Below, one piece after another: positions 20,774-35,218 of a DNA stretch of 64,000 nt. The translations under genes and the position numbers were made by a program. Source of the DNA: Alkalibacterium sp. (lineage in GTDB: Bacteria; Bacillota; Bacilli; Lactobacillales; Carnobacteriaceae_A); contig JAFIFE010000011.1 in the NCBI GenBank assembly GCA_020832185.1, positions 186,001 to 250,000 on the forward strand, read 5' to 3'. Under the pieces are notes generated by a model. That model did not search any database and was not told where the DNA came from. It saw nothing but the letters and a program-made list of their open reading frames with translations. Each line of letters opens with the position of its first letter. Within the stretch, counting starts at the first letter, position 1.

Positions 20774-20878
20774 TGGTTTCCTCCTGTGACTATATTAATT
20801 TTCCTTAAGTATATCATAAGAATTTACAAATTAAATATAAAATGCCGTTTGTGGTAAAATATCTATAGAAAGGATGTG

Positions 20879-22168
20879 ATGGAGATGGCCTTTAAACCCG
20901 GACAGCATTTATCTCAAAAACAAAAACAGACCTACATTCCACATCTCGTTCAGAATGTTCAGTTACTGCAATTGAACAGATTAGAATTATCCACTTTTTT
21001 AAACAATTTAATTGTCGGAAATCCATTAGTGGACTTACCAGAATCTGAAAATCAGCTCATTCAAAGAGCCTTGAAGAACAGTTCAGCTGTTATTGAAGAG
21101 ACAGCTACCAGCCAGCAGTCTTTATACGAGTATTTAAAAGAACAAGTAGAGTTGCTTTACCGTCCCACCTATTTGAGAGAACTTATTTTCTGGTGGATCA
21201 ACCAGCTGGATCACAAAGGGTATGTGACAAAAGATATAGACGAGGCTGCAGCAGAAACTGGAGCCTCCTCTGTCCAAGTCCTGGATGCCCTCACTTTACT
21301 CCAGCAGCTTGATCCTCCTGGTATCGGTGCCCGTTCATTACAGGAATGTCTGATGCTGCAGACCGAACGCATCGATTTTTCACCCCCAACTGCCTATATC
21401 ATTCTCGAGGAAAATTTTGACAGATTATCTCACCGAAAATGGAAACAGCTAGCTGAAATTTATTCAATTTCTGAAGCCGAAGTGAAAGAGGTCCTTGAGT
21501 TTGTCCAGACACTTTCACCTCATCCTGCTGATGCGTTTCAGCCGAGTTATACCCCTTTTATCCTTCCAGAATTGAGTATCATTTTTGAAGATGGGGAAAT
21601 GACATTGAAAGAGACTAAATATAAAACGCCCCTCCTCTCTTTTAATTCTTCTTACTATACTGAATTGAAAGAGAAGAATGACCAGACAATCGATCAGTAT
21701 ATAGAAGAAAAGAAAAAAGAGTATGAGAATCTTCAAGCTGGTCTGGAGAAGAGGAAAGAAACGATCCTGCGCGTTGGAGCAGCCATCGCCAAGCATCAGT
21801 ATAAGTTCTTCGCTGACAGTAAAAATGGATTAGTTTCTCTACAGCTGAATGATTTAGCCCAGGAACTGCAATTGAATGAATCCACGGTGAGTCGGGCAGT
21901 CAGAGACTCTTATATCCAAACGAAGACAGGTACTTACGAATTGAAAACTTTCTTGTCCCGTCGATCATCAAGTGGGGACTCACAGCATCAGGTAGAAAGA
22001 CACCTCATTTCTCTTATCGAGAACGAAAACAAAGCAAAACCTTTATCCGATCAGCTGCTTTCTGATAAGTTGACAGAATCCGGTGTGACCTTATCAAGAA
22101 GAGGGGTCACAAAATACAGAAAGAAGCTGAATATTCCTTCATCCACTGAACGGAAGCACACCGATTGA
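20879..22168 (+). CDS. rpoN: RNA polymerase sigma-54 factor
   Basis: A 429-residue sigma-54. Region I is Gln/Leu-rich (QKQKQTYIPHLVQNVQLLQL), the core-binding domain contains LDPPGIGARSLQECL, and the C-terminal DNA-binding part has an HTH (LNESTVSRAVRD) and the RpoN box as SRRGVTKYR, a variant of ARRTVAKYR. It directs transcription from -24/-12 promoters with an AAA+ activator. In this window the partner is LevR and the target is the mannose PTS promoter. Starts at GTG 20876, ATG 20879 and ATG 20885 are all possible; 20879 is best spaced from AAAGGA. Confidence 0.94.
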   Translation: MEMAFKPGQHLSQKQKQTYIPHLVQNVQLLQLNRLELSTFLNNLIVGNPLVDLPESENQLIQRALKNSSAVIEETATSQQSLYEYLKEQVELLYRPTYLRELIFWWINQLDHKGYVTKDIDEAAAETGASSVQVLDALTLLQQLDPPGIGARSLQECLMLQTERIDFSPPTAYIILEENFDRLSHRKWKQLAEIYSISEAEVKEVLEFVQTLSPHPADAFQPSYTPFILPELSIIFEDGEMTLKETKYKTPLLSFNSSYYTELKEKNDQTIDQYIEEKKKEYENLQAGLEKRKETILRVGAAIAKHQYKFFADSKNGLVSLQLNDLAQELQLNESTVSRAVRDSYIQTKTGTYELKTFLSRRSSSGDSQHQVERHLISLIENENKAKPLSDQLLSDKLTESGVTLSRRGVTKYRKKLNIPSSTERKHTD

Positions 22169-22200
22169 ATGACAGCAAGGAAACCTTGCTGTCATTTTCC
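22168..22200 (+). terminator. Terminator of rpoN
   Basis: AATGACAGCAAGG pairs exactly with CCTTGCTGTCATT across a 3-base loop, followed by TTCCTTTTG. A second imperfect hairpin (CGGGGC..CCCG) follows at about 22242-22280. Confidence 0.88.
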
Positions 22201-22360
22201 TTTTGTTCATTATTCGGCACTTATTATCTCGAACAAACAGAAACGGGGCCTGACTATTTTTAATAGTTCAAGTCCCGCTTTTGATTTATCTAGTGCCCTT
22301 AAGAGATTATTTGCCGTTTTTTTCTTAGCTGTCGGACTATTCATGGGCTTACGGTTGATC

Positions 22361-22765
22361 GCGCTATAACGGCGATAGTTACTTAGGACTCGGCAGATGT
22401 ATCTCAACCGAGTGCTACACTTCTCTTCATTTGTGTAGCACTCACTCCTTTACTTCTGGTCGAGCACGCTTTAATAGCGGCAGTTAGGTAGGACTCGCCG
22501 GATGTTTCTCAACCGAGTGCTACACTTCTCTTCATTTGTGTAGCACTCACTCCTTTACTTCTGGTAGAGCACGCTTTAATAGCAGTAGTTGAGTCGGTCT
22601 CGGCAGACAATTTCAGCCGAGTGCTACACTTCTATTCATTACTGTAGCACTCACTCCTTTACTTCTGGTCGAGCACGCTTTAATAGCAGTAGTTGAGGCG
22701 GTCTCGGCAGACAATTTCAACCGAGTGCTACACTTCTCTTCATTACTGTAGGACTCAACACTTTA
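22361..22765. repeat. Tandem array of four ~105-bp units with internal hairpins
   Basis: Four head-to-tail copies have their shared core GAGTGCTACAC at 22410, 22515, 22619 and 22723, giving periods of 105, 104 and 104 bp. In units 1 and 2 the core is followed 12 bases later by its exact reverse complement GTGTAGCACTC. Unit 3 keeps 10 of the 11 pairs, and unit 4 is degraded (TGTAGGACTC). Other shared text includes ACTCCTTTACTTCTGG, GAGCACGCTTTAATAGC and TCTCGGCAGACAATTTCA. The period is not kept as a multiple of three, so it is not a protein repeat. The remaining gap to 22920 shows nothing recognisable. Confidence 0.85.
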
Positions 22766-22920
22766 TTTCTAGTACAGTCATACTTAATTTTAGACTTACA
22801 CATGGAGTCGCATTATTCTTCCAGTAAATAGTTTAGTACTCGACAGTTTGTGGAAATAATTACACATAACCTGGCAGATCATTCTCTAAGAAAATGTAAG
22901 TAAGGGAGAAATCTGAACCT

Positions 22921-24387
22921 TTATATGAACAGACCGTCCCGTTCCATCAGCTCTCCGATTTTAAGCAACCAATGTTCTTTTCCTTTTGGAGCTGTTATCT
23001 GCACCCCAATAGGCAGCCCTTCTTCGCTCAAGTGAACGGGTAGACTAATTGAAGGCTGTCCAGTTAAATTAGACTGCTGTGTAAACGGTGTGAGTGATAA
23101 ACTCTCTTCCCACATATCCCAGATCAGATCCTGCTGGGCTTTAGAACTCATGGACTCTACTTGTTTCATTTTAGCTATAAAGTCGTCTTTCCAGTATACC
23201 CGATCGACGGATGGTGCAGTTTCCGCCGTGGCTGGCTGAATCAGGAGATCGACTTCCTTATGAAACTGATCGGCCTTCTCTGCTGCAGCATCCCACTGAC
23301 TGATAGCATTTGAATAGTCGGCTGCACTTGTTTTTTTGCCTGCCAGATATAAAACCCATGTCAGCAGTTCAACATCGGTTTCCTCTACAGGACGTCCCAT
23401 ACTCTTTTCAATAGTTGAAAACATCGCTGCAGTTTCTCCCGCATTCATTGTATAGTATGCACGCATCAGTTCGACTCCGTCTGTATCAGGGGCTGCTTCA
23501 GAAACCTTATAACCTGATTCTTCAAGCCATTTCACTACTTTCTCCACAGCACATTTCGCATCAGCACTGACCTTTGTGTGAACAGGCGAATCGAGAGAAA
23601 ATGAAAAGGTGAACGGTCGCTCAAGGGGTTGCTTGATATAGTTCAGGTACCCTTCGTTAAATAATGGTGTCTGAAAAGCGGCTGCCGGTTGAATGATCTG
23701 CATGGCATCCATCATTGCCGCAGTGTCGCGAATCGATTTAGTTAATGCAAAACTGATGGCCGCACCTTGCCAGTTTCTCCCACTCCCAGGCCCCACCGGT
23801 GTTCTTCCTCTAGTGGGTTTCAGTCCAATCAACCCTGTGAATGAGGCTGGAATACGAATCGATCCACCTCCGTCACTAGCTCCAGCAATTGGTACCATTC
23901 CTGATGCGACCGCAGCCGACGCCCCTCCGCTGGACCCACCAGCACTGAACTCAGCATTAAAAGGATTACGTGCCGGCCCATACAATTCAGAGTGAGTAAT
24001 GTTGGTAAAACCAAATTCTGGAACATTGGTCGATCCAATAGGAATAAACCCTGCCTTCAGGAGCTGACTGACAAAATGACTGGTCTGTTGTGCAGTTACA
24101 TTTCTAAATAGACGTGAGCCAGCAGTAGCGGGCTCTCCTTTCAGATTTTGCCCTAGTTCTTTAAGCAAAATCGGGACTCCTCCAAACGGTTTTCCATTCC
24201 AACCCTTTTTGCCGGCTTCTTTCAGTGCCTTTTCCTTACGTGTATGAATCACAGCATTGAGCAACGGATTCTGCTCTTCGATCACACTAAAAGAGCGTTC
24301 GATCAGTTCCTGCGAGGACACGTCTCCTTTTTTGATCAGTTCTGCAAAGTAAAGCCCATCTTCTTTTCGGTTAATATGATGGATCAT
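22921..24387 (-). CDS. Amidase-signature hydrolase
   Basis: A 488-residue enzyme of the amidase signature family, which hydrolyses amides through a Ser-cisSer-Lys triad. The Lys is in PILLKELGQ, the Ser-rich loop is GGSSGGASAA, and the nucleophile and cis-Ser region is GASDGGGSIRIPASF. It resembles the group annotated as 6-aminohexanoate-cyclic-dimer hydrolase or generic amidase rather than GatA: no gatB or gatC is nearby. Natural substrate unknown. The ATG lies at 24387 behind AGGAGAG. Confidence 0.9.
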   Translation of the reverse strand: MIHHINRKEDGLYFAELIKKGDVSSQELIERSFSVIEEQNPLLNAVIHTRKEKALKEAGKKGWNGKPFGGVPILLKELGQNLKGEPATAGSRLFRNVTAQQTSHFVSQLLKAGFIPIGSTNVPEFGFTNITHSELYGPARNPFNAEFSAGGSSGGASAAVASGMVPIAGASDGGGSIRIPASFTGLIGLKPTRGRTPVGPGSGRNWQGAAISFALTKSIRDTAAMMDAMQIIQPAAAFQTPLFNEGYLNYIKQPLERPFTFSFSLDSPVHTKVSADAKCAVEKVVKWLEESGYKVSEAAPDTDGVELMRAYYTMNAGETAAMFSTIEKSMGRPVEETDVELLTWVLYLAGKKTSAADYSNAISQWDAAAEKADQFHKEVDLLIQPATAETAPSVDRVYWKDDFIAKMKQVESMSSKAQQDLIWDMWEESLSLTPFTQQSNLTGQPSISLPVHLSEEGLPIGVQITAPKGKEHWLLKIGELMERDGLFI

Positions 24388-34180: not shown

Positions 34181-35218
34181 TTAATCTACGCGTGTTTCAC
34201 CAGTGATTGTTGCGTCGTCATCAATTTCTGCTGACTCTTCAAATTCTTCACTTGCAAAAATCAAGTCGCCATCAATTGTTCCACCAAGTAGTTTGAATCC
34301 GTTCGCTTCTACGTATACATCACCTTCGAAAGTTCCATACTGCAGGCGAGTATTTTCATTTTGAATAGTAATGCTTGGTGCGCTTAATGTAAATGTTCCT
34401 GTTACGTTACGGTCAGCATCTTGCTCATATAATGCCAGTTTACGTTCGACTTCACCATTGTTGTTTTCAAACCCATCTACCATTACCAATTCTTCATCAG
34501 ATGAAACGTCGTCCTGGAAGATAACGATCCATCCACCTTCATTAGATAATCCTTCGAGTAAGGAATCTTCATCGTTTACTACTGATTGAGTTGCTCCAGT
34601 AGTAGCATCTGCAGTTTCACCATTATCAGATGCTTCACCGTCTACGCGTGTTTCACCAGTGATAGTAGCATCTTCATCGATCTCAGCTGAGTCTTGTAAT
34701 TCTTCACTTGCGAAAATCAAGTCTCCATCGATTGTGCCACCTAGTAAGCGGAATCCTTCTGCTTCTACATAAACGTCACCTTCGAATGTTCCGTACTGTA
34801 ATCGCGTGTTTTCTTGTTCAATAGTTAAACTTGGTGCGCTTAATGTAAATGTACCCGTTACGTTACGGTCAGCATCTTGTTCGTACAATGCCAGTTTACG
34901 TTCAGATTCGCCATCATTATTTTCGAATCCGCCAGTTAAAACTAGTTCTTCATCTGAAGAAACGTTATCTTCAAAAATAACGATCCATGCTCCCTCATCT
35001 GAAATGCCTTCCAGAAGTGACTCTTCATCGCTGACTCTGCTTTGAGTTGCTCCGGTTGTTACATCAGACCCTTCTTCTGTTTCTTCATTGCTCTCTTCAA
35101 CGACTTCTCCAGTTTCATCAACCGTTTCATCTTCTGTTGCAGAGTCGTCTCCGTTACCACAAGCAGCTAGTAACCCCATGCTTGCTGTGATTAATAATAG
35201 TCTGTTCCACTTTACCAT
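34181..35218 (-). CDS. Acidic lipoprotein with two tandem beta-repeat domains
   Basis: A 345-residue predicted lipoprotein; lipobox LLAAC with the lipidated Cys at 20, acidic spacer 24-53. Residues 54-193 and 206-345 are near-identical 140-residue repeats, both starting TTGATQS and ending TGETRVD, joined by an acidic 12-residue linker. Each contains RKLALYEQDADRNVTGTF and YGTFEGDVYVEA. It is the two-domain relative of the gene at 33005. Likely outer-surface, anchored in the membrane. Function unknown. Promoter TTGACA-16-TATGAT with a Rex/CRP-like site just after it. Confidence 0.84.
   Translation of the reverse strand: MVKWNRLLLITASMGLLAACGNGDDSATEDETVDETGEVVEESNEETEEGSDVTTGATQSRVSDEESLLEGISDEGAWIVIFEDNVSSDEELVLTGGFENNDGESERKLALYEQDADRNVTGTFTLSAPSLTIEQENTRLQYGTFEGDVYVEAEGFRLLGGTIDGDLIFASEELQDSAEIDEDATITGETRVDGEASDNGETADATTGATQSVVNDEDSLLEGLSNEGGWIVIFQDDVSSDEELVMVDGFENNNGEVERKLALYEQDADRNVTGTFTLSAPSITIQNENTRLQYGTFEGDVYVEANGFKLLGGTIDGDLIFASEEFEESAEIDDDATITGETRVD

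Follow-up and report, generated by a model that had tools for sequence, protein, structure and literature searches.

Phased arrays of alternating half-sites at gene junctions in Alkalibacterium and its relatives, candidate binding arrays for a co-evolving DNA-binding protein

Several described systems come close to the arrays reported here, one of which lies between rpoN and an amidase gene in Alkalibacterium sp. The operator of the repressor HrcA, CIRCE, has the form TTAGCACTC-N9-GAGTGCTAA, and sites of the loxP/dif type have 13-bp arms around an 8-bp centre. REP/BIME elements, as presented in two reports, are extragenic, regularly spaced and alternating in orientation, occupy convergent-gene sites and form lineage-specific families (PMC2817692, PMC3733652). 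The sopC locus of plasmid F consists of twelve 43-bp tandem repeats, each with a dimer-bound inverted repeat, according to one account (PMC9178275), and TIGR arrays have 36-nt units, with two repeats of 8-12 nt and 9-nt variable spacers, and lie beside a Tas gene (PMC12045711).

The arrays described here are built from a 14-bp half-site, Y-GAGT-N6-WWW, that alternates in orientation along a ladder: GAGT-to-GAGT over 17/18 bp, then tail-to-tail over about 8 bp, repeating every 51-53 bp, or about five helical turns. They share with REP/BIME elements their abundance in a genome, extragenic location, regular alternating spacing, occurrence between convergent genes, species-specific families and proposed protein binding. 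They differ in that the REP/BIME element is a 20-40-bp hairpin with a GTAG/CGTC tag, while the element here is a 14-bp half-site set on a rigid 52-bp grid with two alternating half-site types. GTAG does occur inside the arms in the genome under study (G000), but it is absent from the consensus words of G001, G005, G007 and G083. REP/BIME membership was rejected because the tagged palindrome is not shared, although the layout is; the REP-like option in the earlier note on this DNA nevertheless named the nearest known architecture. Tandem repeats carrying inverted repeats, in a comparable geometry, are also found in sopC/parS, a centromere array with a ParB-type dimer, which is, however, one plasmid array beside par genes, whereas here there are many chromosomal arrays with a 52-bp period, and no par genes were noticed among their neighbors.

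The own-genome word GAGTGCTA matches the CIRCE half-site, and CIRCE shares the GAGT-to-GAGT orientation, but its linker is 9 bp rather than 17/18 bp, and tandem arrays with lineage-variable inner six bases are particular to the present family. With no exact CIRCE match in 231 loci, the resemblance is limited to the half-site. TIGR arrays likewise have two alternating short repeats in tandem; here, however, the units are 52 bp, the two repeats are oppositely oriented, the gaps, of about 8 and 16-18 bp, are unconserved, linkers are often identical within an array and there are many arrays per genome. TIGR-Tas was rejected on unit size and orientation, and no Nop-domain (Tas) gene was noticed in the flanking ORFs (Pfam on 25, the others by eye). 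The earlier note had dismissed a CRISPR, and we concur, as the half-sites alternate in orientation and many arrays contain the same linker more than once. Literature searches confined to open-licence papers brought up no account of such arrays.

The array between rpoN and the amidase gene

In the window (the whole 64-kb stretch of DNA that was analyzed), Tandem Repeats Finder (TRF) called a repeat at 22389-22757 with a period of 104, 3.5 copies and a score of 559. The tandem repeat previously noted between rpoN and an amidase gene is thus real, both neighbors bear the expected domains, and the direct-repeat spacing of 105/104/104 is as it had been given. The 104/105-bp unit is, however, a double one, because a degraded second palindrome lies midway between successive hairpins, and the true period is 51-53 bp. 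Between about 22382 and 22784, half-sites follow one another at intervals of 24/25 and 27/28 bp, so that the array occupies the span 22361-22765 assigned to it but runs slightly further, with a possible weak unit at its left end (Table 1). In the hairpins at 22410, 22515, 22619 and 22723, which have 11-bp arms around a 12-base loop, the number of complementary arm positions is 11, 11, 10 and 9, in agreement with the description of arms that are exact in the first two copies and decay in the last two. A terminator-like hairpin follows rpoN, whose transcript may therefore end before the array. Elsewhere in the window, a 456-bp tandem duplication (34185-35053) has 1.9 copies with 79% matches.

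Table 1. Features of the rpoN/amidase locus, in window positions. Unit coordinates are those of the core 10-mers; tails add about 3 bp on each side.
Feature	Position	Strand	Remark
rpoN (sigma-54), left flank	20876..22168	+	Sigma54 domains
Terminator-like hairpin 3' of rpoN	22167..22197	+	13-bp perfect arms; 1 found vs 0.7 expected in shuffles
Possible further degraded unit, left end	22330..22366		half-site scores 11.3 and 5.1 (perfect site 15.4)
Main array	22382..22784		8 consecutive GAGT-to-GAGT units, period 51-53 bp
Unit 1	22382..22419
Unit 2	22434..22471		right half-site degraded
Unit 3	22487..22524
Unit 4	22539..22576		right half-site degraded
Unit 5	22592..22628
Unit 6	22643..22680		right half-site degraded
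Unit 7	22696..22732		left half-site weaker
Unit 8	22747..22784		right half-site weaker
Hairpin 1	22410..22443		tail-to-tail junction, units 1/2
Hairpin 2	22515..22548		tail-to-tail junction, units 3/4
Hairpin 3	22619..22652		tail-to-tail junction, units 5/6
Hairpin 4	22723..22756		tail-to-tail junction, units 7/8
Amidase gene, right flank, convergent with rpoN	22921..24387	-	PF01425

The array stands far above chance. A family profile made from 24 array stretches, by sequence only, matched four plus-strand stretches of this array with E values of 1e-13 to 7e-13 each, and all nine matches in the window up to E 1 fell inside it; one of the 24 stretches was taken from this same array, so that its match there is by construction. 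Searching the whole array against relatives' DNA gave no useful match; that in G033 was short and weak (E 0.003), looked coding-like by eye and was rejected.

A family of arrays on a common grid

Following up weak BLAST matches, we located additional arrays in this genome that share the word but are otherwise different in sequence. With E values up to 0.05, the profile gave 127 matches in G000 and 151 in G003, counting overlapping matches on both strands. A chain finder given nothing but the GAGT grid was run on loci fetched from 16 genomes and returned 65 arrays with 963 half-sites. Of these arrays 16 are in G000, which thus has at least that number; a single shuffled version of these loci (388 kb) yielded none. 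Two chains, L032 and L165 (G004), have four half-sites only and a score of 14.5, equal to that of chance matches in viral contigs; exact words support L032 but not L165. The chain set omits profile matches in ribosomal-RNA regions of G002 (L110, L111), and L109 yielded no chain.

The grid was also recovered by exact searches for half-site pairs in which the gap was left free (3-32 bp). All 12 tail-to-tail pairs in G000 had 14/15 bp between their 10-mers, and all 12 GAGT-to-GAGT pairs found among 27 genomes (nine in G000, three in G003) had 17/18 bp. The period averaged 52.1 bp for G000 and G003, and 51.9 bp for a further eleven genomes, within the 51-53 bp that the chain finder permits, and adjacent gaps showed no mutual compensation. 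When the arrays of each of five genomes were compared with one another, one genome at a time, identity was 0.41-0.98 in the GAGT columns, which the chain finder fixes, 0.45-0.66 at column -1, 0.25-0.89 in the N6 and 0.34-0.84 in columns 10-12, as against 0.24-0.37 in the linker (columns -9 to -2) and 0.22-0.40 in columns 13 to 16, which form the gap on the tail side. Linkers of different arrays in one genome are thus at about random identity (~0.25), and the flanking columns are unconserved except for the pyrimidine at -1. Columns -1, 11 and 12 are conserved although they were unused in the first site scoring. Tandem duplication acts inside many arrays, in which units are often near-identical, but TRF found no tandem repeat in the arrays at C26:47.6k and C16:286.3k, where only the half-sites and the grid recur. 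At L035:5231-5896 (G003) the period is 105 bp, and a repetitive ORF of about 222 codons that spans the array could be annotated as a protein.

We then asked which pair of half-sites forms the unit. A hairpin unit predicts that an array starts with a forward half-site and ends with a reverse one. The opposite was seen: 88 of 112 array ends have their tails outward (p=9e-10), 42 of 56 arrays starting with a reverse half-site and 46 finishing with a forward one. This count is restricted to arrays that have four or more exact GAGT sites and leaves out seven loci that contain masked stretches or lie at or close to the end of a contig; it includes arrays at shared junctions, which are not fully independent. 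A laxer rule gave 90 of 114. The repeating unit is therefore the GAGT-to-GAGT pair, and the hairpins that had been taken as the basic unit are the junctions of neighboring units.

Half-sites were sorted by two-class unsupervised clustering of columns 4-12 in 14 genomes (G004 and G006, with too few sites, were omitted). Tail-to-tail pairs of mixed type (A+B) made up 37/42 in G001, 19/24 in G002, 37/39 in G005, 13/14 in G083, 7/8 in G103, 12/12 in G010 (one locus) and 5/6 in G009. G007 alternated in one of two arrays (9/18 pairs), while G000 (25/102) and G003 (21/102) carry mostly one type. Clustering revealed no alternation in G011, G013, G021 or G027; a rule-based split showed it in one of the two G021 arrays. 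Within one array, alternation can arise from unit duplication, but this does not explain why, in G001, G002 and G005, it holds from array to array in either orientation. The two alternating words suggest two related subunits, and the single main word of G000 and G003 suggests that a homodimer may serve there.

To define the reach of the family, we applied a geometry-only pattern, with GAG/CTC-type cores at the grid positions but without the inner motif, to 395 genomes of the order, of which 25 matched. These comprise (i) all 12 genomes of the genus, ten with two or more forward matches; (ii) three genomes of sister genera, G013, G021 and G026, the last at two overlapping places; (iii) four genomes of a second family, G027 (213 forward matches), G062, G083 and G103; and (iv) six genomes with a single match. 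The control gave no match in any of the 19 genomes under (i) to (iii) and a single match in seven other genomes. The geometry is thus above chance in ten genomes of the genus, the three of sister genera and the four of the second family. Within the genus, G004 has one match and G008 only one, in reverse, neither of which is alone better than chance. At class level, 31 of 398 genomes (359 of them new) matched, including G000 and G027 as before; the other 29 had one or two matches each, as compared with 19 genomes with one or two control matches, and no series of geometry matches was present at any listed place in these 29. Over the 754 Bacilli genomes in all, the geometry outside the named groups is near control level. 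The exact three-half-site pattern matched only A. olivapovliticus (Carnobacteriaceae, Lactobacillales) in GTDB r220, because the word differs in other species.

Gene junctions and the words they carry

Among the 59 arrays for which both neighbors were seen, the flanking genes, called by a simple ORF rule, are convergent in 30, co-directional in 25 and divergent in four. Comparison gaps of at least 100 bp in the array loci of five genomes were convergent in only 9 of 60 cases (p=3.5e-5), and the excess persisted when shared junctions were counted once (21/45, p=5e-4 vs 9/60). Elsewhere, the convergent share was 18/93 in 20 stretches of G083 and G103 and 3/26 in the window. The neighbors that were read are mostly metabolic or housekeeping genes, and share no theme, although several ABC transporters and glycosidases are among them. 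No recurrent neighbor emerged as the binding protein among 236 flanking ORF entries (blastp clusters by eye; Pfam on 25 ORFs). Genes of the phage-integrase family lie near two of the 65 arrays: two ORFs from L040 in G000, and beside L097 in G001, which is situated between topA and an xerC-like member of that family. In the two genomes sampled for skew (ten 10-kb points each), 8/8 arrays of G103:C2 and 7/8 of G083:C4 are in one replichore, and seven G103 arrays fall within 0.78-1.08 Mb, near the GC-skew terminus.

Eleven gene junctions hold arrays in two or three species. The rpoN/amidase, HI0933/PepF, dnaJ/lepA, DUF554 and YidC/NERD junctions each do so in G000 and G003; the 3' side of a GerM-like gene in G000, G003 and G005; rpiA/epimerase in G000, G001 and G003; DUF72 in G001 and G003; acyltransferase/ABC transporter in G001 and G005; a flavodoxin-fold gene in G002 and G005; and GH65/HAD hydrolase in G002, G009 and G021, the last from another genus. 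The names rest on Pfam for one member of each junction, and the GerM, rpiA, HI0933 and DUF72 junctions are interrupted by an additional ORF in one or more species. The G000 array L037 is on the opposite side of its gene pair from the G002/G005 arrays and was not counted as shared. At the GH65/HAD-hydrolase arrays (L102, L112, L169) the genes are co-directional, and the HAD protein appears beta-phosphoglucomutase-like by eye. A search for rpoN across the genus matched 11 of 12 genomes, with none in G009. In G001, G002, G004-G007, G010 and G011 a different gene follows rpoN, and no above-shuffle chain was found within 1.5 kb. In G008, rpoN is in two pieces and there is no GAGT chain; downstream, on the reverse strand (L155:1055-1369), lies a 103-bp tandem repeat of 3.1 copies without the GAGT core. 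This genome is almost without GAGT arrays; the repeat is possibly the same system with a changed core.

The inner six bases of the half-site vary by lineage, and for 17 of the 25 shared-junction arrays the best-scoring profile is the one built from the remaining arrays of the genome in which they lie. Eight arrays depart from this: those at rpiA/epimerase, three in number, whose half-sites are of a different class; four in the G002/G005/G021 group, which have a single word in common; and one in G009, for which there is no own-genome profile. This homogeneity is partly a matter of ascertainment, because most arrays of G000 and G003 were found through a GAGTNCTACA-type word; motif-free matches (C5:20.6k, C5:79.8k, C9:28.5k) indicate that other words occur in these genomes. 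Since G000 holds at least two half-site classes (that at C5:79.8 kb differs), one protein may not explain all arrays. These sequence comparisons show that arrays keep their junctions across species yet mostly carry their own lineage's words.

A candidate binding protein and the alternatives

We consider it probable, at roughly two in three, that these are binding arrays for a candidate DNA-binding protein, probably dimeric, whose gene lies elsewhere in the genome and which co-evolves with them. Such a protein is the simplest agent that could keep 14-bp words and their helical phase while the rest drifts, and change the word at many loci of one lineage. Each unit would be bound by a dimer or, in genomes with two alternating half-site types, by two related proteins; successive dimers on one helix face could then form a filament or cluster, often at convergent gene ends; and as the specificity of the protein drifts, the arrays would follow. 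The least certain step is the job of the arrays: most likely they serve to organize the chromosome or to insulate transcription units from one another, in a centromere-like or BIME-like manner. Their position at gene ends, the absence of a theme among the flanking genes read and the filament-like phasing favor this over control of single genes. The interpretation in the earlier note is thus partly supported: of its four options, the protein-binding array is preferred, while structured RNA, a plain minisatellite and a REP with the GTAG tag are not.

The main rival, which we regard as unlikely, is a BIME-like non-autonomous mobile repeat, in which a transposase or recombinase reading the half-sites spreads and lengthens the arrays and any host function is incidental. 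It shares the alternating orientation, regular spacing, extragenic and convergent sites and lineage families given for BIMEs in the reports cited above (PMC2817692, PMC3733652), and in G083 and G103 (family f2) an 18-bp linker, present in both orientations, is common to different arrays, unlike in Alkalibacterium and like a dispersed repeat. Against mobility, arrays stay put at junctions across species and, at GH65/HAD hydrolase, across two genera; half-sites are preserved although the linkers between them have drifted to random identity; and most lineages' consensus words contain no GTAG tag. In IMG/VR viral contigs, the exact grid gave only isolated, chance-like matches of four or five sites and the three-half-site word none, and blastn returned no plasmid match for three arrays and no phage match for two. 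A separate, improbable reading would make the half-sites Xer/Cre-type recombination sites, with 13-bp arms, AT-rich inner ends and an 8-bp centre (34 bp), at which recombination between direct repeats resizes the array. The 13-8-13 dimensions and the A/B arm types do resemble loxP/dif, and there are the two phage-integrase-family genes described above; these were, however, the only ones noticed near 65 arrays, and the array ends dictate the opposite pairing (88/112), on which ground we rejected this reading.

It is very improbable that the hairpins act as structured RNA or as transcription terminators between genes. On either strand, folding is more stable for the array than for shuffled sequence (z -6.6 and -5.0), which is to be expected of any inverted repeat, and the convergent bias suits terminators, but a separate terminator-like hairpin already follows rpoN. 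Compensatory changes in the arms, which the earlier note had proposed as a check, were sought in 81 distinct hairpin pairs from G000 and G003 with 500 shuffles. At variable position 4, partners agree in 22/81 against a within-array shuffle mean of 24.7, and no arm position exceeded the within-array shuffles (lowest 101 of 500), positions 6 and 12 being at chance. Across-array shuffles were exceeded at positions 6 (18 of 500) and 12 (3 of 500), an excess that reflects array composition. For GAGT-to-GAGT pairs, agreement at position 3 was slightly raised (38 of 500, and 12 of 500 when only low-duplication arrays were taken), which is unremarkable in 40 tests. In G001, G002 and G005, moreover, the inner bases of the two arms differ, and the covariance-model search yielded no Rfam family at gathering score, its one sub-threshold match lying at the rpoN terminator, outside the array. 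Variable arm positions without covariation within arrays thus disfavor structured RNA or a cruciform. A neutral minisatellite that expands and contracts by slippage, the least credible alternative, is already refuted as a full explanation. Units within one array are often near-identical, and the number of sites differs at shared junctions (e.g., 14 and 30 in L031 and L035), as slippage would have it; it does not account for the many arrays per genome, the shared junctions, the conservation of half-sites against random linkers or the full grid in the two TRF-negative arrays.

For the favored protein-binding reading, the five-turn phasing, shared positions and lineage-wide turnover of words are strong signs of a dedicated DNA-binding protein. 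More tentatively, and at rather less than even odds, the arrays may represent a new chromosome-wide DNA-organizing system of a Lactobacillales branch, in which one or two fast-evolving proteins polymerize on dozens of 52-bp-phased gene-end arrays whose target words are rewritten in concert as the proteins evolve. If true, this would be a bacterial counterpart of the arms race between centromere proteins and satellites. The family, which provides about ten species with numerous target loci in each genome, offers a natural experiment in protein-DNA co-evolution, and a directly testable candidate for a chromosome-organizing or insulating system outside the well-studied model bacteria.
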